A stretch of DNA of 64,000 bases from the NCBI GenBank assembly GCA_019637915.1, contig JAHBUV010000001.1:496001-560000 (forward strand), given 5' to 3'. Shown piece after piece: positions 1,554-40,544 of the stretch; position 1 is the first letter of the stretch; each line of letters starts with the position of its first letter. The DNA is from Pseudobdellovibrionaceae bacterium. Lineage in GTDB: Bacteria; Bdellovibrionota; Bdellovibrionia; Bdellovibrionales; Bdellovibrionaceae. A model generated the notes under the pieces. It saw nothing but the letters and a program-made list of their open reading frames with translations, was not told the origin of the DNA and ran no database searches. The translations under genes were made by a program, and so were the position numbers.

Positions 1554-2834
1554 ATGGGCAATAACTTTAAAGAAACCAAAACTGGACACGGCTACCACAC
1601 TTGTGGAGCTGAAGATTGTAAAGGCAAAAAATGTGGCGGTGATGGTAACGCTAACGCAATCGGGAAGAAGCAACGCAAATCCAAACCGTTTCCACTAACA
1701 CCAGATGGCCTAACTATCTTAAATGAACTTAAACCTGTAGTTTTACAGCTTCAAGGCAACGAAACTGTTAACGAACCAGATGCGGATAATTCAAAGAACC
1801 AAGTTCTTATCTATCTTAAACTGAACGATGAACTTAACTCAGCTATCCAATCTAAAAACGTAGATGGTATTAAAGAAGTTTTCCGAAAAGACCACTTAAT
1901 GGCCGCTCAAGTGGCAAGTTCCGATTTACTAACCGAAAAGGACATCAATCAATTACGCAATGAGGGAATGCGTATGTCAGAAGCTCTGTTAAATCCAAAT
2001 CTTAGTTTAGACACCTTCACCAATTGGGACTTAGAAGCGCAAAAAGAAGCGATGGGTGATAAGAAGATGTTAGTTCAAATTAGGAAACAATGCACCTTAG
2101 CTTTGCGTCTTAACCCTAAAACTCCCAACGCAATCATTTTCAAAGAAGCCAGTGAAGATATTGAACTGTATAATGATGCAATTAGAATGCTTGGATCTAA
2201 TCTTGGTCAAGGTTCTGAGGCTTTCCAATTACAAAGAGATCACGCATTTGAACGATTACGTTTATCTCTAAAACATCCATCCATCAAAGGACTTGGAGTT
2301 GATAAACTTATGCGTAGAGGAGTAACTTCCGCAACCGCTAGAGTTTTATTAGAGAACCCAAACTGTGAAGGTCATTGGATTAACTCCAAAGTTAAAGAAT
2401 ATAAAGGTGCAGTAAAAGAAGTCTTCTTACAGCATCCGAAATTAAGTCAGGATAACATCACTAAATATGCTGATAGCGAGGAGGTTACGGAAAGACTTAG
2501 TATCTCTATTAACCCATCAGCCTCAAGAGATGTCATTGCTAAACTTTGTAACGATACGGATTCTAAAGTAAGTAAGTCAGCCAGAAATCACGCCAATGCA
2601 CCAAAACACTATTTGGATGAACAAATTAACACTCTAAAAAACCTTCGGGCTACCGCCGAACAAAATTTAAGAAATACTCTTCTTAACGGAAACCCATTGT
2701 TTGATTTCCATGTTATCAGACAAGCCAAAGAAGATATCTCTGGGTTTGATAAAGAGTTAACCCGTAGAACCGAAGCTCTTGCCTCACAAGTTAGTAGCCA
2801 AGCCGAATTAGACCTATCTAAATTATTAGGTTAA
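1554..2834 (+). CDS. Cys-motif plus LRV/HEAT-like repeat protein
   Basis: 426 residues. The N terminus has C-x4-C-x4-C (CGAEDCKGKKC, near residue 18), nearly the same as in the protein starting at 9437 (CGHEDCHGNKC). The second half contains helical repeats of the leucine-rich-repeat-variant type, for example around NPSASRDVIAKLCND and SKVSKSARNHANAPKHYLDE. Known LRV proteins from Azotobacter have a cysteine-rich metal-cluster domain before the repeats, and this arrangement is similar, but homology was not tested. It probably is a binding scaffold. Ribosome site AGGAG precedes the start. Confidence 0.6.
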   Translation: MGNNFKETKTGHGYHTCGAEDCKGKKCGGDGNANAIGKKQRKSKPFPLTPDGLTILNELKPVVLQLQGNETVNEPDADNSKNQVLIYLKLNDELNSAIQSKNVDGIKEVFRKDHLMAAQVASSDLLTEKDINQLRNEGMRMSEALLNPNLSLDTFTNWDLEAQKEAMGDKKMLVQIRKQCTLALRLNPKTPNAIIFKEASEDIELYNDAIRMLGSNLGQGSEAFQLQRDHAFERLRLSLKHPSIKGLGVDKLMRRGVTSATARVLLENPNCEGHWINSKVKEYKGAVKEVFLQHPKLSQDNITKYADSEEVTERLSISINPSASRDVIAKLCNDTDSKVSKSARNHANAPKHYLDEQINTLKNLRATAEQNLRNTLLNGNPLFDFHVIRQAKEDISGFDKELTRRTEALASQVSSQAELDLSKLLG

Positions 2835-3093: not shown

Positions 3094-3321
3094 ATGTATA
3101 GTCTATCAATTAAACCGATGAAAGGTCTCATTACTTTGATGACCTTGATTTTAGGTGTGGGGTTTTTAAGTGGCTGTGGAACCACTCAATATAGTCGCGG
3201 GGAGTTTGGTGATACTAATAAAGTAAATCTCCTGAACGACAAGTTTACCGAAAGCACGGCTGAATTGTTGGCTAAGTCAGTAGTAGAACAATTTAAAACC
3301 TGTCCTACATTAACCCAATGA
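3094..3321 (+). CDS. LpoB-like lipoprotein, N-terminal half (split gene)
   Basis: 75 residues: a lipoprotein signal with lipobox LSGC near residues 25-28, then a short helix (FTESTAELLAKSVVEQF). LpoB family proteins have this order, with the helix directly followed by the globular domain. Here the frame stops at that junction and the globular domain continues in the -1 frame from the overlapping ATGA at 3318. Either the halves are translated separately by coupling, a ribosomal frameshift joins them, or a one-base change split a normal gene. Without joining, this half is a lipidated peptide only. Ribosome site AGGAGG. Confidence 0.65.
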   Translation: MYSLSIKPMKGLITLMTLILGVGFLSGCGTTQYSRGEFGDTNKVNLLNDKFTESTAELLAKSVVEQFKTCPTLTQ

Positions 3322-3719
3322 AACCTCTTCCGTTTGTGGCGATTGACCCTGATAAAGGGATTTCAAATCGCTCTGAAGAGCTTATTGACCTCGTTATGGT
3401 CTCTAATAAAATTAGAACCTCGCTGATTCGTTCAGGAAAATTCCGTTTCGTAGATGCAAGTTCCCGCAAATCTTTAGAGAGCGAATATCAATATAACGAA
3501 AGTGGTTCAGTAAGTGTGGGGAGCCGTAAATCAAGAGGTAATCAAATTGGTGCGGATTTACTTTTGAATGGTGAACTAACCTCAATCGTTCAACAAGCTG
3601 GGAAAGATAAAACCATCTATTATCAACTTGATGTTCAACTAATCAATGTAGAAACGGGAGCTATTGAGTGCACCGCTACTGAAAGTGCTCGTCCTGTATA
3701 TAAACTTCACCGGGAGTAA
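3318..3719 (+). CDS. LpoB-like globular domain (split gene, second half)
   Basis: 133 residues matching the penicillin-binding-protein activator LpoB domain: IRTSLIRSGKFRFVDAS, then GADLLLNGELTSI and a final strand with VETGAIECTA. LpoB in Enterobacteria is an outer-membrane lipoprotein that activates PBP1b in the periplasm. This frame has no signal peptide of its own and no clear ribosome site; it overlaps the preceding frame by four bases. Unless joined to the upstream half it would stay in the cytoplasm. The next gene starts two bases after its stop. Confidence 0.65.
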   Translation: MKPLPFVAIDPDKGISNRSEELIDLVMVSNKIRTSLIRSGKFRFVDASSRKSLESEYQYNESGSVSVGSRKSRGNQIGADLLLNGELTSIVQQAGKDKTIYYQLDVQLINVETGAIECTATESARPVYKLHRE

Positions 3720-5354: not shown

Positions 5355-6371
5355 ATGGGTGATAAAAGTTTTAACGATTTAACGGCATTAGAAAAATCAG
5401 CTATTTTGCTCCACACACTTGGACCGAAAGCTATGAAGATTATCTTTAAAGGTTTACCCGATAAAGAGATTAGGCAAATCCTCAACCAAATGGGAAAGAT
5501 TAATAAGGTTCCCGTGGGGATTGTGAATCAGGTTTTAAATGAATACTACACCAACATAAGTGAGATTGAGAACTATCTATTCTCCAACGATATTCTTAGC
5601 AGAGATAATCTAAAAGACGTTCTCGGAGAAGACCGTGCCCGAAATGTTTTAAGTGGATTGAGTCTCTCTGGGGATAACGGACCTAATTTGGAATCGTTAG
5701 AGATGGTGGACGCTAAAACCTTAGCTCACTATCTTTATAATGAACACCCACAAACCATAACCTTAATTGTAGCCCATCTTGGAAAAGATAAAAGAGCGAC
5801 TGTTCTTCAATTTCTCCCGAAAGCACTCCAGGGGGAAGTCATTCAACGCTTATCAAAATTAGAATCAGTAGATCCAGCCATCATAAAAAACTTAGATGAA
5901 ACTCTTAAAACCCAATTCGCTAATATCGCGGAAAACCCATCCAACAAATTAGGTGGTGTTCAATCTCTCATTGATATGTTCACGGGAATGGACCAAGAGC
6001 AAGCTAACCGAATGATTGAAGAGCTGGAACAACGCGACCCCATCTTAGCCGATAAGATTAAAAAGGAAATGTTCACTTACGAAGACCTCTTACGAATTCC
6101 AGACCGTTACTTCCAAACTCTATTGAGTAAGGTTGATGTCAAGGTCTTAGTGTTGAGTTTAAAAACCGCCAGTGAGGCCATTAAAAATAAGGTCTTTAGC
6201 AATATGTCAAAACGGGCGGTAGAAAACTTAAAAGATGAACTGTCGGGAGCTAAGCCAGTTCCCCGTAAAGATGTTGAAGAAGCCAAACAACAAATCGTGG
6301 CCTTAGCGTTAAAGTTAGAGGCTGATAAAGAAATTCAAATTAATCGCGGTGGGGAAGACGACCTGGTTTAA
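5355..6371 (+). CDS. fliG: Full-length flagellar motor switch protein FliG
   Basis: 338 residues, normal for FliG (about 330). All three domains are present: N domain (LTALEKSAILLHTLG onward, residues 8-100), middle domain with the FliM-binding EHPQT motif at 130-134 and a GG pair near 203, and C domain from about residue 230. The torque helix reads NMSKRAVENLKDEL; compared with E. coli it keeps the arginine and first aspartate, and has Glu for the second aspartate. FliG links the MS ring (FliF) to FliM and meets the stator. It is transcribed alone from its own leaderless-type promoter. A chromosomal fliG presumably exists elsewhere; its presence on this element is the oddity. Confidence 0.93.
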   Translation: MGDKSFNDLTALEKSAILLHTLGPKAMKIIFKGLPDKEIRQILNQMGKINKVPVGIVNQVLNEYYTNISEIENYLFSNDILSRDNLKDVLGEDRARNVLSGLSLSGDNGPNLESLEMVDAKTLAHYLYNEHPQTITLIVAHLGKDKRATVLQFLPKALQGEVIQRLSKLESVDPAIIKNLDETLKTQFANIAENPSNKLGGVQSLIDMFTGMDQEQANRMIEELEQRDPILADKIKKEMFTYEDLLRIPDRYFQTLLSKVDVKVLVLSLKTASEAIKNKVFSNMSKRAVENLKDELSGAKPVPRKDVEEAKQQIVALALKLEADKEIQINRGGEDDLV

Positions 6372-9436: not shown

Positions 9437-10189
9437 ATGGCTAAAAAACTTGGGTATAAAAAATCAAAGGCTTCAAAGCACGGATTTAAAAAATGTGGTC
9501 ATGAGGATTGTCATGGTAACAAGTGTAGAGGTGGATCTAATTCTAAATTTAAACATCCTGGTTTCTCATTTCTAAAGAACGCCGAAGCCGAAGGACAATT
9601 GCTCAAAGTCTATATTCACTCCAAACGTGAAGACAGTGGTCTTGATGTCACCGTAGAAGTCGCCACTAAAAAGGGTGAGATTAGAATTGTTTCTTTTGAA
9701 GGTATTCCCGAAATCCCGAAGAGCGCACAAAAGCGAATTGTTCCCGTTTACAATAGCCAAGAAAAAACTATTAATGGTCGTCATTCTATTTTGAAGGATA
9801 ACGATATGACTTTGGCCGGTGACGGTCAGGGGATTATCAAAGTTAAATTAGATAACCTCCACAAGATGAATAAAGATGCCTCGGACCATCATCCGCATCA
9901 ATTCTTCCGCAATAAAGCTATTGATGAAGTTAAAGGTGGAATTCGTAAACGCGACGATGCCGACAGTCGTCATTTACGCGACCAAATGGAAGAGTACATT
10001 AACAAGGGAGATAAACGCGGAGCCGATAGTATTTGGTTTCAGATAATTCCGCCTCTTTATAACCACAAACAAGATATTGGTAAAATTCTCTACGCCATCA
10101 AAGATGCTCCCGAATTGGATAAGGAACGGGACATTCAATATAGCCTGAAAGCTTATCTTGAAAAGTTTAAGCCGGAGGGAAATGTATAA
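9437..10189 (+). CDS. Cys-motif protein of unknown function
   Basis: 250 residues. The N-terminal 36 residues are basic and hold C-x4-C-x4-C (CGHEDCHGNKC), the same motif as the protein at 1554. The remainder has no recognised domain; residues 55-130 look like beta strands and the last 100 are helical. The next gene, an LRV-repeat protein, overlaps it by TAATG. Together the two genes match the two ends of the single 1554 protein, which suggests a shared function and possibly a shared complex. Confidence 0.6.
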   Translation: MAKKLGYKKSKASKHGFKKCGHEDCHGNKCRGGSNSKFKHPGFSFLKNAEAEGQLLKVYIHSKREDSGLDVTVEVATKKGEIRIVSFEGIPEIPKSAQKRIVPVYNSQEKTINGRHSILKDNDMTLAGDGQGIIKVKLDNLHKMNKDASDHHPHQFFRNKAIDEVKGGIRKRDDADSRHLRDQMEEYINKGDKRGADSIWFQIIPPLYNHKQDIGKILYAIKDAPELDKERDIQYSLKAYLEKFKPEGNV

Positions 10190-25673: not shown

Positions 25674-25791
25674 AAAGTCTCCTTAGGGGAGTAAATGGAT
25701 TTCAAATATTAAATTTAGTATATTTTAATGTATCAGACGAAATGCCGACCTATTAGATTTGGCTCTCATTCCATTTAGTTACTGATGAATT

Positions 25792-25819
25792 CTAAGAATC
25801 CATCAAAAAACCGGTATCA
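25792..25819 (+). promoter_or_regulatory. Bipartite element promoter of the switch operon
   Basis: CTAAG (25792-25796), 14 bases, CCGGTATCA (25811-25819); AGAGG ribosome site before the fliM start. Confidence 0.65.
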
Positions 25820-25835
25820 ATATATAGAGGATTTT

Positions 25836-26819
25836 ATGAATCAAGTTTTATCACAAAGTGAAGTGGATGCCTTATTGGCCGCCGTGGCTGAAGGGGAGCT
25901 TAAACAAGGAAAGCCTATGAAAAGAGAAAAAGACAATATCGTTCCCTACGACCTAACCAGTCAGGACAGACTCATTCGCGGACGACTACCGCAATTAGAC
26001 GTTATCTATGAAAGGTTAATGCGTTTATTTCGGGTCAGCTTAAGTAATCGCCTTCGTTCCATAGCCTCTGTTTGTATGACTTCAACAGAGTTTCTTAAGT
26101 TCGGTGAGTTCATCAACACATTACCAATTCCAACGATAATGACGGTAATTAGAGTTGAAGGTCTTCGCGGACCTTTTCTTTTGGTGACTCAAAGTAAACT
26201 GGCCTACGGGATTATTGATAAAATATTTGGTGGTGGTGGACGACCTTTTACGAAAATTGAAGGTAAGGAATTTACCAAGATTGAATTGTCCACGGTCAGA
26301 GAAATTGAAGATATCTTTATCAAAGATTTGAATCAGGCTTGGGAGAGTGTTTTTGATATTAAAGGCCAAACCTTCAGAACAGAAGTTAATCCCCAGTTCG
26401 TTGGTATTTGCCCACCAACTGATATTGTAATAGCGACCACCTTTGAGGTGGAATTAGAGAACCAAAGCGGCGTTATCACCCTCGTAGTCCCATATGGAAC
26501 TATTGAACCCATCAAAGAAAAATTATCCAATTGGTTTCAAATTTCCGACGCTGATAGCTCTTCGGCTGAAAAAGTTAAAGACGTTGCCCAATCAAATCTA
26601 CTGGCAACCAAAGCAGACTTAACAGTGATGTTAGGTCAAGTAGAAGTCCCTATCTCTACCTTGAGAAATCTAAAAGTAGGGGACGAATTGGTATTAAGCC
26701 AAAACGCTAATGACCCAATCGGTGGTTTTATTGATGGGAAAAAAGTTTTGGGCCTGAAGTATGAAATTTCGCCGAATAAAAGCCAAACAATCAAATTAAC
26801 CGTAATGGGAGGAAAATAG
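25836..26819 (+). CDS. fliM: Flagellar motor switch protein FliM
   Basis: 327 residues from the ATG at 25836; an in-frame ATG 17 codons earlier overlaps the promoter. The N-terminal peptide MNQVLSQSEVDALLAAV is the CheY-binding segment. The middle domain includes the conserved GGGGRPF (132-138) region of the FliG-binding face, and the last 75 residues form the FliN-like (SpoA) domain. Length is normal. In the motor it bridges FliG and FliN in the C ring and receives phospho-CheY. First gene of a four-gene operon; fliN starts one base after its stop. Confidence 0.93.
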   Translation: MNQVLSQSEVDALLAAVAEGELKQGKPMKREKDNIVPYDLTSQDRLIRGRLPQLDVIYERLMRLFRVSLSNRLRSIASVCMTSTEFLKFGEFINTLPIPTIMTVIRVEGLRGPFLLVTQSKLAYGIIDKIFGGGGRPFTKIEGKEFTKIELSTVREIEDIFIKDLNQAWESVFDIKGQTFRTEVNPQFVGICPPTDIVIATTFEVELENQSGVITLVVPYGTIEPIKEKLSNWFQISDADSSSAEKVKDVAQSNLLATKADLTVMLGQVEVPISTLRNLKVGDELVLSQNANDPIGGFIDGKKVLGLKYEISPNKSQTIKLTVMGGK

Positions 26820-26820
26820 T

Positions 26821-27078
26821 ATGAGTGAGAAAAATAAGGTTATCGCCAAAGAAGAGTTAGATAAGGTCCGAGTGTTAGCATCAGTAGAAGTTGGTCGTAG
26901 AAAAATCTCTGTTGGAGAACTGGCTGATTTATCTAAAGGTTCAGTTTTAGAACTAGACCGTTTAGCCGGGGAACCTTTGGATCTCTTTATCGGTGAGACA
27001 CTATTTGCCAAAGGTGAAGTAGTAGTTATCAACGAGAAGTTCGGAATTCGTATCACAGACATTATTAAAGGCGGGTAA
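26821..27078 (+). CDS. fliN: Flagellar motor switch protein FliN
   Basis: 85 residues comprising only the SpoA domain: VLASVEVGRRKISVGELADL, then GSVLELDRLAGEPLDLFIG and a final GEVVVINEKFGIRITDI. This is a compact FliN without a long N-terminal extension. FliN forms the base of the C ring with FliM and also helps dock export substrates. The next gene starts two bases after the stop. Confidence 0.92.
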   Translation: MSEKNKVIAKEELDKVRVLASVEVGRRKISVGELADLSKGSVLELDRLAGEPLDLFIGETLFAKGEVVVINEKFGIRITDIIKGG

Positions 27079-27079
27079 A

Positions 27080-28273
27080 GTGAACTCTAAACTATCTCCT
27101 CCATTGCTTAGGAATATTCCTGAAAGAGACTTGGCTAATTTTTTAGTCAACGAACACCCTCAGGTTATTGCCGTTATTCTTGCTCTATTAGAAGTAGAAA
27201 AACGCGGTCAGGTCTTAAAAAGACTTCCTGAAGAACTTCAAGCTGAAGCTATGATGCGTTTTGCTAACTTAGAATCCGTTGAGAAACCTTTGTTAGAAAA
27301 GGTTTGTTCTATATTAGAAAATGAACTCTATCAAAATCCCCATAATCTAGTTGATCTTGGTGGGGTCGTTAAGGTCGCTGAAACTCTTAACGGGCTAGAT
27401 AAGATGACCGAAAAAAGTATTATCTCCCGTATTGAAAGTCGTGATGTTCCTTTAGCTGACGAAATCAAAATGCTAATGTTCGTTTATGAAGACTTAATTC
27501 GTATTGATGTGCGCGGATTAAAGGTAATTTTCAATGAAGTCAGTAGGGAGACACTAATTGTTGCTCTTAAGACTACCCCAGAGATTCTAAAAACCAAAAT
27601 CCTAAGCTGTTTCTCTAATAGAGATAAGCAATGTATTGAGTCTGATTACAATGTTTTGGGTGTGGTTCGTTTGTGTGATGTTGAAACGGCTCAACAGACT
27701 ATTCTGAATACCGCTAAGCGATTAGAGGCGGAGGGTAAGATTTATTACGGTAGAGGTGGAGTAGAAGACCTTATCGTGGGCGGAGAACCGCTCCTAAGTC
27801 CTGACCTTGAGTCTTTATCAGAATTAGTTTTAGATGAAAAAATTAAAGAAGAAAGAAGTCGTCTAGCTGAATATGAAATTGTTCAGAACGACCTTCAAGA
27901 TTTGATGAAATACAAGAATGGTGTAGCGAAACTAATTCGTGAACATCCGCATTGCTTATCAAGCTTAACTGAAGCGGAAAGAAAACAGTATTCGGTAGCC
28001 CAATCCGATTCCGCAAGAGACATTAAATTCGTTCCCACAATTGACTCAGTAGAGGTTAAAACTAAAGCCGATAAAATTGAATATCTTAAAGCTCTACAAA
28101 AACAACTTGGTTTTTATGAGTTCGCTGAGGATGATATTGCGGACTTGAATTCTTATCGTGATTTATGGGTGAAACTGAATTCTCTAATTCAGACAGAGAC
28201 TCCCTCAGAAGAGAAAAGTCTTCTCCGCGAATTTGAAGAGTTTGTTAGAAGAAGTGGACATAAGAAATCATAG
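27080..28273 (+). CDS. FliG-like protein without N domain, with repeat extension
   Basis: 397 residues with a GTG start. Residues 10-235 match the FliG middle and C domains (EHPQV at 25-29 for FliM, GG near 95). The FliF-binding N domain of about 100 residues is absent. The torque helix reads CFSNRDKQCIESDYN, keeping the arginine and one of two acidic residues. From about 240 to 397 an extension holds two related helical repeats (EYEIVQNDLQDL and FYEFAEDDIADL), which recur in the next gene. It could be an altered rotor subunit that binds FliM but reaches a different partner through the extension. Confidence 0.85.
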   Translation: MNSKLSPPLLRNIPERDLANFLVNEHPQVIAVILALLEVEKRGQVLKRLPEELQAEAMMRFANLESVEKPLLEKVCSILENELYQNPHNLVDLGGVVKVAETLNGLDKMTEKSIISRIESRDVPLADEIKMLMFVYEDLIRIDVRGLKVIFNEVSRETLIVALKTTPEILKTKILSCFSNRDKQCIESDYNVLGVVRLCDVETAQQTILNTAKRLEAEGKIYYGRGGVEDLIVGGEPLLSPDLESLSELVLDEKIKEERSRLAEYEIVQNDLQDLMKYKNGVAKLIREHPHCLSSLTEAERKQYSVAQSDSARDIKFVPTIDSVEVKTKADKIEYLKALQKQLGFYEFAEDDIADLNSYRDLWVKLNSLIQTETPSEEKSLLREFEEFVRRSGHKKS

Positions 28274-39132: not shown

Positions 39133-40200
39133 TTATTGCCCTATTATTTTCTGAACCACACTAACTTCGTCAGTAGTCATATCATAGCCAGCGTAATATT
39201 CTTCGGTGGTCTTAATGCTATCACCAATAAGCTTGGCGACACGGTCAAGGGGAACGCCCTTACCAAGAAGATGAATACAATATGAGTGCCTGAGAGAGTG
39301 TGGGCTGATTTGTTTCTTAGCTAGTTTAAAACTCTTGCGGGCGGCATTGATTAGAGGATGTTGGCAACACTTCCGCCATTCTTCTTTATCTTCAACGGCG
39401 GCCCATTCTTCAAAACCCTTTTTACAGATGTCTAACAGAACAGTGTGATGGTTCTTTGAGTTTTTCAGGCCTCGGATTTTTAGGTTCTTATCCATTTGTT
39501 GGGAAACGTAGATACTACCGTTCTTTTTCAAACTATCCGAATCAATCATGAAGGCTTCGCCCAAACGCATCCCGGTGCCAAAGAGAGTGATATACAGAGC
39601 TTTGAGTTCTGGGGATTCTACATGATTTAAAATTTTCTGGAGTTCTTCAAAGGTAACGAACTTAACTTCTTTGTGAGGTCTTTTCTTGCGATGGAGGATG
39701 AATGGTCTTCCCAAGAACTTAAGCAAAGAATTAACTCTGGTCGTATAGCGTTTGTGACCGGTGCTATCCCAGGCGGCATCGACTTTTTTCTGAAGTTCCA
39801 ATTTAGAGGCTGACGCCAGCGGTAGTGGGTCAATACCTTTCATAGCGACCAGAAACTCACGCTCAGCGGTTTCGGGAGAGACAATATCACGGCCAATGTA
39901 ATCACGTTCCCAGAGCTTTTCAAAAGTCTTATAATTGGCTTTTAATATTTGGTCGCGGATGTGGGCTTTTTCTTGAGAGAGACCGGCCTCTCTTCGGAGA
40001 GTATCAACGAGTAGCTTAACTTGGATGAGGGCTTGTTCTTCGGTGAGTAGACCAGCGAGGAAATTAGAATTGATAGAGTTTAAACGCTCGTCTTTGATTT
40101 GCGGCTGAAGTGGTTTGCCGACTTTCTGATAAATCTTTTTGTGTATGGCAAAGGTTCTCCGACCGTGGGTCGGTTTCTTTACCGTGAAGCCGTAGTTCAT
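39133..40200 (-). CDS. int: Tyrosine-type integrase
   Basis: 355 residues from the ATG at 40200 (GGAG ribosome site); a start at 40221 is possible. Catalytic motifs: FGTGMRLGEAF (Arg I), HSLRHSYCIHLLGKG (H-x-x-R) and TTEEYYAGY with the Tyr nucleophile. An N-terminal basic segment and SAM-like core-binding region are present, so this is a full-length integrase. It lies 116 bases from the 3' end of the tRNA-Leu, the normal place for the integrase of an element inserted at a tRNA gene. Confidence 0.85.
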   Translation of the reverse strand: MNYGFTVKKPTHGRRTFAIHKKIYQKVGKPLQPQIKDERLNSINSNFLAGLLTEEQALIQVKLLVDTLRREAGLSQEKAHIRDQILKANYKTFEKLWERDYIGRDIVSPETAEREFLVAMKGIDPLPLASASKLELQKKVDAAWDSTGHKRYTTRVNSLLKFLGRPFILHRKKRPHKEVKFVTFEELQKILNHVESPELKALYITLFGTGMRLGEAFMIDSDSLKKNGSIYVSQQMDKNLKIRGLKNSKNHHTVLLDICKKGFEEWAAVEDKEEWRKCCQHPLINAARKSFKLAKKQISPHSLRHSYCIHLLGKGVPLDRVAKLIGDSIKTTEEYYAGYDMTTDEVSVVQKIIGQ

Positions 40201-40303
40201 TTGCCATCTCCAAAGTGCCAACCTTTCGTCGGTTCACCATATAAATAAGATCGGCAAATTCTCTCGCTTCCTTTAATTCGTCAATACTCAAAACACTAGC
40301 CAT
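40064..40303 (-). CDS. Small overlapping ORF before the integrase
   Basis: 79 residues from an ATG preceded by AAGGA. Only the first 30 or so residues (MASVLSIDELKEAREFADLI) lie outside the integrase gene; the rest overlaps it in another frame. It could be a short leader peptide coupling integrase translation, an excisionase-type protein, or the original integrase N terminus cut off by a frameshift. Confidence 0.3.
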   Translation of the reverse strand: MASVLSIDELKEAREFADLIYMVNRRKVGTLEMANELRLHGKETDPRSENLCHTQKDLSESRQTTSAANQRRAFKLYQF

Positions 40304-40315
40304 AAGTCCTTAAAG

Positions 40316-40400
40316 TGGTGCGCAAGAGGGGACTCGAACCCCTAATCCTTTCGGAACACGCCCCTCAAACGTGCGCGTATACCAATTCCGCCACTTGCGC
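40316..40400 (-). tRNA. tRNA-Leu (anticodon GAG), complete
   Basis: 85 bases with acceptor GCGCAAG/CTTGCGC, a D arm (GGCGGAATTGGTATACGC), anticodon loop TTTGAGG, a variable arm (TTCCGAAAGGA), T arm AGGGGTTCGAGTCCCCT and an encoded CCA. It resembles bacterial tRNA-Leu and appears functional. Its 3' end faces the integrase. Confidence 0.9.
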
Positions 40401-40431: not shown

Positions 40432-40506
40432 AGAGGGTTAAATTTTATCTACCAAAAATCAATAACTACTTAAAACCTTTCCGCTTTTTCGAAAGCGTCA
40501 TAAATA

Positions 40507-40544
40507 CCTCAAACATGCGTGTCTACCAGTTCCACCACCCGCGC
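40507..40544 (-). pseudogene. tRNA-Leu(GAG) 5' half, broken in the anticodon loop
   Basis: Reads GCGCGGGTGGTGGAACTGGT then AGACACGCATGTTTGAGG on the minus strand, matching tRNA-Leu acceptor, D arm and anticodon up to GAGG. The next bases do not rebuild the anticodon stem and no T arm follows. It differs from the complete tRNA-Leu, so it is a separate gene, and it marks the change from AT-rich to GC-rich DNA. Confidence 0.75.

Follow-up and report, generated by a model that had tools for sequence, protein, structure and literature searches.

A full-length FliG and further flagellar switch genes on an integrative element in a Pseudobdellovibrionaceae genome

Two FliG proteins in one cell, and additional proteins that act on FliG, have been described before. 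In Borrelia burgdorferi, according to the part of the source available to us, FliG1 and FliG2 divide the labour between assembly and torque (PMC7225975). The EpsE clutch (PMC3000366) and the YcgR brake (PMC12713396), again going by the available parts of the papers, are extra proteins that act on FliG and thereby change rotor output. With regard to the ring into which FliG fits, the accessible portion of a cryo-EM study describes a ring of 33 FliF to 34 FliG subunits in which D1 and D2 of neighbours intercalate, and states that the FliF:FliG ratio need not be 1:1 (PMC11087270).

The locus described here lies in a 64,000-nucleotide stretch of DNA (the window; G000:C1:496001-560000, in a genome of 3.32 Mb) and encodes a full-length FliG (P0001) on an integrative element that also carries FliM, FliN and a FliG that lacks the N-terminal domain (P0002). 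As in B. burgdorferi there are two FliGs in one cell; however, the Borrelia pair is not described in the available part of PMC7225975 as lying on an integrative element, and an N-less FliG is additionally present here. EpsE and YcgR are not rotor subunits, whereas this element supplies rotor subunits themselves. Like tRNA-targeted integrative elements, it has a tyrosine integrase beside a tRNA gene, a core in the anticodon loop and precise ends, but it additionally brings a complete tRNA-Leu as a replacement and a set of flagellar switch genes. P0001 shares its three domains and its length with chromosomal FliGs of Bdellovibrionota (for example the host FliG, G000:C1:1427 kb), yet differs from them in its location, a mobile element and not the neighbourhood of fliF and fliM, in its element promoter motif and in its strong divergence. 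Extra FliG or C-ring parts are thus already known, and what is notable in this case is their carriage on a precisely bounded mobile element; no paper on switch genes carried by an integrative element was found in the literature searched.

The full-length FliG and the promoter-like motifs

The features at and upstream of the gene for P0001, in window coordinates, are as follows.

3318-3719, plus strand: LpoB-like gene upstream of P0001
3722-4165, plus strand: small lipoprotein-like gene upstream of P0001
4167-5321, plus strand: lipoprotein-like gene directly upstream of P0001
5336-5354, plus strand: motif A, AAAACCAGTATCTATAGGT, of leaderless type, with GTAT 12 nt before the ATG
5355-6371, plus strand: full-length FliG (P0001; FliG_N, FliG_M and FliG_C; 338 aa), start codon ATG

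A sequence-only reading of the window had proposed that the FliG at 5355 has all three domains, unlike the one at 27080, that some 20 kb separate the two genes, and that the charged torque residues of the former are mostly kept; the first two points were borne out, and the third is supported by alignment. In Pfam searches P0001 matched FliG_N (residues 9-106, E = 1e-27), FliG_M (residues 121-192, E = 7.8e-24) and FliG_C (residues 222-329, E = 9.7e-36), all three exceeding the Pfam cut-offs, whereas the protein at 27080 matched M and C. By alignment to the five torque charges of E. coli FliG, which we take to be K264, R281, D288, D289 and R297, P0001 retains four (K270, R287, D294 and E295, with D289 as E); the R297-equivalent charge is lost (P303). 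Also retained is the EHPQ segment, presumably the FliM contact segment of FliG.

Of the columns with at least 95% conservation among Bdellovibrionota FliGs, P0001 retains 16 of 23 in the N domain, 5 of 5 in the N-M linker, 26 of 34 in M, 6 of 14 in the M-C linker and 40 of 65 in C. No domain therefore appears to be decaying faster than the rest, and since the N domain is about as conserved as M and C, binding of FliF is plausible as judged from the residues kept. Binding of the host FliF in particular is not assured, because the FliF-binding part is the region least similar to the host FliG (39% identity in D1 and 38% in D2, against 50% in M and 47% in C). An AlphaFold model made with a 40-row alignment (mean pLDDT 73; pTM 0.36, so that the domain arrangement is unreliable) aligns over about 320 columns with FliG from solved C-rings; taken singly, each of its domains also finds a counterpart: MotAB-bound FliG_C (8ucs, target TM 0.85), FliM-bound FliG_M (4qrm, 0.82) and, least close, FliF-bound FliG_N (5tdy, 0.62). 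Each domain of the model thus has a FliG fold, with the N domain as the weakest match.

The claim that P0001 has its own leaderless-type promoter is supported at the level of sequence. GTAT lies exactly 12 nt before the start codon at 14 of the 36 upstream sites matched by the motif class CCGGTATCT (class A), and P0001, with the variant CCAGTATCT, belongs to this group; the spacing would be consistent with a leaderless transcript. The 36 class-A sites share a longer consensus, ATTCTAAG followed by AAAACCGGTAT. The gap of 33 nt to the upstream gene would also allow read-through, and the motif is defined from sequence only. (About 30% identical homologues of the lipoprotein-like protein encoded by that gene occur in 37 of the 39 class genomes searched, its own included.) Both this motif class and a second one (class B, CCATTTAG) occur element-wide, for example at window positions 349, 5355, 9437, 11183, 11843 and 29252, and many of the sites show a constant spacing of leaderless type. 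Of 46 GGTATC matches in the element, 26 precede an ORF on their own strand by no more than 60 nt, where 1.8 would be expected, and 7 of the 9 CCATTTAG matches are placed in this way (0.3 expected); the motifs were first spotted by eye and counted later, which makes these counts descriptive, though the excess is large. A generic sigma-70 scan gave nothing above shuffles, and the sigma-factor candidates on the element were all below Pfam cut-offs. The two FliG architectures do stand behind different promoter-like motifs, class A before P0001 and class B before the FliM operon.

The integrative element and its other switch genes

Further features of the window are the operon that encodes P0002 and the right end of the element.

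25771-25784, plus strand: motif B, CCATTTAG, 14 nt before the FliM ORF start
25785-26819, plus strand: FliM with an N-terminal CheY-binding-type peptide, MNQVLSQSEVDALLAA; the true start is perhaps the ATG at 25836
26821-27078, plus strand: FliN, 85 aa
27080-28273, plus strand: FliG without an N domain (P0002; M and C by Pfam) and with a C-terminal extension of about 165 aa
28359-28730, plus strand: 123-aa protein with weak resemblance to the P0002 extension (10.3 bits; best of 2000 extension shuffles, 6.6)
39133-40221, minus strand: tyrosine integrase of the element (Pfam)
40316-40400, minus strand: the element's complete tRNA-Leu(GAG), unlike in sequence the split host gene that it replaces
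40507-40544, minus strand: 5' half of the host tRNA-Leu(GAG), with the attachment core TTTGAGG at 40507-40513; the right end of the element is at 40506

That the FliG genes sit on a real mobile element, as the sequence-only reading had it, is now supported by exact ends. GC content is about 39% between C1:424 kb and 536 kb, down from about 62% in the chromosome, and the host tRNA-Leu(GAG) gene is split at the anticodon, with its 3' half at C1:424278-424331 (L006:8278-8331). When the flanks are joined they give one intact tRNA-Leu(GAG), whereas no intact copy is obtained from the left end by itself; 112,175 bp of inserted DNA lie between the 7-base cores. The integrase together with a split tRNA gene that the joined flanks restore therefore identifies this DNA as an integrative element. 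A search by exact 12-mers found no attachment repeat. We had also considered, from an 11-bp match, that the intact tRNA gene is a host-element hybrid; this was rejected, as the intact tRNA belongs to the element and the split in the host gene lies further out. Of 5 relatives examined, 3 have tRNA-Leu(GAG) near queA, but in the cases compared its orientation is opposite to that in the host, and for that reason these sites were not taken as evidence of an empty site.

Other genes of the element encode a family A DNA polymerase, an SSB, two FtsK-like proteins and a membrane protein with a diadenylate cyclase (DAC) domain (L008:17100-17771, minus strand). Neither a relaxase nor a conjugation pore was among the Pfam families listed (25 of 69 for A1 and 25 of 36 for A2), and no capsid, portal, terminase or tail gene was among the PHROG families listed (25 of 73 for A1 and all 15 for A2). 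By eye, a patch of higher GC content within the element (C1:453.8-460.7 kb; L007:17817-20000 to L008:4661) encodes proteins that we take to be ClpK/ClpG-, YfdX-, HdeD- and PsiE-like, and presumably resembles a transmissible heat-resistance locus. Element proteins at window positions 1554-2834 and 9437-10189 and at L009:5137-5544 share a cysteine/histidine start like GHGYHTCGAEDCKGKKCGG, a possible metal-binding tag.

FliM and FliN directly precede the N-less FliG, and the CheY-binding-type peptide of the element FliM is as in the host FliM. The host carries its own FliG, FliM and FliN; FliF is present in a single copy, in the host part of the genome only, outside the element. Across the genome FliG_C occurs in five places, three of them inside the element, and FliMN_C has four matches, two host and two element. 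A FliM match was found in 124 of 143 class genomes, with two complete FliMs in this genome alone, other double FliM rows being pieces of one gene or lying at contig ends.

In P0002 the Pfam domains are FliG_M (16-87) and FliG_C (117-221); the FliG_N score is 23.8 bits, under the cut-off of 25, with a match that falls over the M domain, and the stop-to-stop frame of 415 aa leaves no room for an N domain. P0002 keeps 24 of 33 conserved FliG columns in M and 44 of 66 in C, and has serine at the position that we take to correspond to D288 of E. coli. Its single-sequence structure model is unreliable (mean pLDDT 37). The extension matches a chromosomal protein family of the class at 38.5 bits (best of 2000 shuffles, 6.6). 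This family, which has one likely membrane segment and is coiled-coil-like, shares with the extension a segment resembling LAEYEIxxxDIADLxxYK, present twice, and also, by eye, a tail that resembles EFENFV. The host copy lies at about C1:1002.8-1003.7 kb, and related chromosomal membrane proteins with a tail like LMDEFENFVNKK are encoded at L072:2267-3235 (minus strand), L073:1359-2342, L074:1397-2401 and L078:1414-2469. A Pfam scan of three members gave no family above its cut-off, and in one genome none of the neighbours of the gene looks flagellar. The relationship raises the possibility that the extension links the N-less FliG to a membrane partner other than FliF.

A third FliG_C protein of the element (292 aa; C1:465521-466399, L008:9521-10399, minus strand) lies outside the window. 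It consists of the C domain only, behind an unrelated N-terminus, and keeps 41 of 59 conserved C columns; at the 5' end of its gene a longer frame is interrupted by an IS21-type element, which is accompanied by a 5-bp target duplication. Four genes beyond it is the gene for a 265-aa protein (L008:7246-8043, minus strand) that ends in LTQEEVDDLLSGKPKKKY, like the CheY-binding N-terminus of FliM, and was the sole pattern match besides FliM proteins in the 856,702 residues of open frames examined; to judge from this peptide the protein is a possible CheY decoy. Short chromosomal proteins with FliG_C only (about 140-290 aa) are scattered in the class, for example at G040:C16:2917-3357 (L075), G052:C8 (L076) and G000:C1:2599485 (L005).

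Origin of P0001 and search for relatives

Compared with the full-length chromosomal FliGs listed for 59 relatives (match in 55), P0001 shows 42-47% identity, and no second full-length FliG was listed among the genomes of these relatives outside G000. Its GC3 is 0.39, against an element median of 0.38 (72 ORFs) and 0.89 for the host FliG; the element FliG, FliM and FliN together span 0.30-0.39, against 0.87-0.89 for host FliM and FliG. Because of this identity and this composition P0001 is no recent copy of the host fliG. Phylogeny does not place P0001 because its branch is too long (4.97 changes per column; the P0002 branch is long also), and groupings with the host FliG and its nearest relative (AU p = 0.46), with the host family (0.55) and with P0002 (0.51) are all allowed. 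A recent capture of the host gene, the outcome that had been named as counting against the earlier interpretation, is thus excluded by 45% identity and by GC3, but the tree leaves room for descent from within the host clade. The host chromosomal FliG itself is 92% identical to the FliG of the Bdellovibrionaceae MAG ACE_BDE5, which points to a host of Bdellovibrio type.

Searches by peptide patterns found no relatives of P0001 in IMG/VR or in 85k GTDB genomes. An alignment query returned 288 FliG loci, the best 80 of which were all 42-47% identical to P0001. Between 2 and 5 FliG matches were listed for each of many genomes outside the class. Plasmid records gave 93 matches, all below 60% identity, and among the 15 rows listed the matching gene, wherever it is annotated, is a plain fliG. 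IMG/VR gave no match to P0002, to FliM or to the DNA polymerase of the element. For the polymerase, the 143 class genomes contain one clear homologue (38%, G119) outside its own genome; an FtsK homologue (32%) occurs in G265, where the surrounding 34 kb that were read contain no FliG. MT835480.1 (L166), labelled bacteriophage, was considered as a phage FliG and rejected; it carries a fliF-fliG-fliH-fliI-like flagellar operon without a phage feature among the ORFs read, and is probably bacterial. No relative that conserves the element switch set was found, and the set is in one genome only.

A putative element-encoded switch on host FliF

The simplest reading of these findings is that the element builds or seeds rings on the host FliF, because it encodes a whole cytoplasmic switch and no FliF, and the motor residues are kept. 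The element would thus encode its own flagellar switch (C-ring) of FliG, FliM and FliN, without a membrane ring. The N domain of P0001 would anchor this switch on the host's single FliF and its C domain would take torque from the host stators, while the element FliM and FliN would complete a ring that the host CheY could still read. The N-less FliG would join FliM and meet the stators, but not FliF, as a modulating or braking subunit, perhaps tied by its extension to another host protein. Because D1 and D2 of neighbouring subunits intercalate in the inner ring, as the available part of PMC11087270 describes it, a FliG without D1 and D2 would be expected to leave a gap or an end there. With separate promoters the element could adjust the subunit ratio and would thereby choose when to rebuild or brake the host motor; the P0001 and FliM operons, 20 kb apart, need not be expressed together. 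The sequence-only reading is supported in part, and the mixed ring or two stages of assembly that it suggested are conjectures. We give an even chance to the proposal that the element assembles a switch of its own on host FliF and in this way retunes or brakes the motility of the host, of which assembly on host FliF, subunit mixing and the effect on motility are the parts that we infer. More tentatively, and with somewhat less confidence, we suggest that the element takes over the host rotor, such that a substitute C-ring, FliG pieces and a CheY-binding decoy change the timing and mode of swimming of the predator, with separate promoter classes for ring-building and ring-braking subunits. Guesses at the benefit to the element are the sparing of energy, keeping the predator attached or roaming, and avoidance of flagellum-binding phages.

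Close behind the ring-building reading, though in itself rather unlikely, comes the idea of a dominant-negative brake, in which no working ring is built, and the FliG variants (N-less or consisting of the C domain) and the extra FliM titrate host switch parts, CheY or stators and so stop or bias swimming. Two of the three element FliG proteins lack the FliF-binding domain, the element protein near the third FliG ends in the FliM-like CheY-binding peptide LTQEEVDDLLSG, and EpsE sets a precedent as a rotor clutch in the accessible text of PMC3000366; yet a pure poison needs neither a complete FliG with a conserved N domain nor a full FliM-FliN pair. We consider it improbable that the switch operon and the extra fliG genes are passengers that decay without function: the IS21-type insertion in the third FliG gene and the long branches of P0001 and P0002 would fit, but against decay stand four intact frames in which functional positions are conserved, complete adaptation to the element composition, and promoter motifs of element type. 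Least probable of all is that FliG, FliM and FliN serve the element as a ring or scaffold unrelated to the flagellum, for instance one placed at the cell pole or used in transfer of the element, an idea in keeping with the missing FliF, the two FtsK-like proteins and the kinship of the P0002 extension to a host membrane coiled-coil protein, but at odds with the retention of the torque residues and of the CheY-binding peptide, features for which the uses known are those in the motor.

If the ring-building reading is true, a mobile element would control the movement of its host by replacing motor parts, and not by regulating or inhibiting the motor. The natural FliG variants with and without a FliF-binding domain would then offer a means to test the parts of the ring for assembly, torque and switching, and would also suit testing whether the FliF:FliG ratio must be 1:1.
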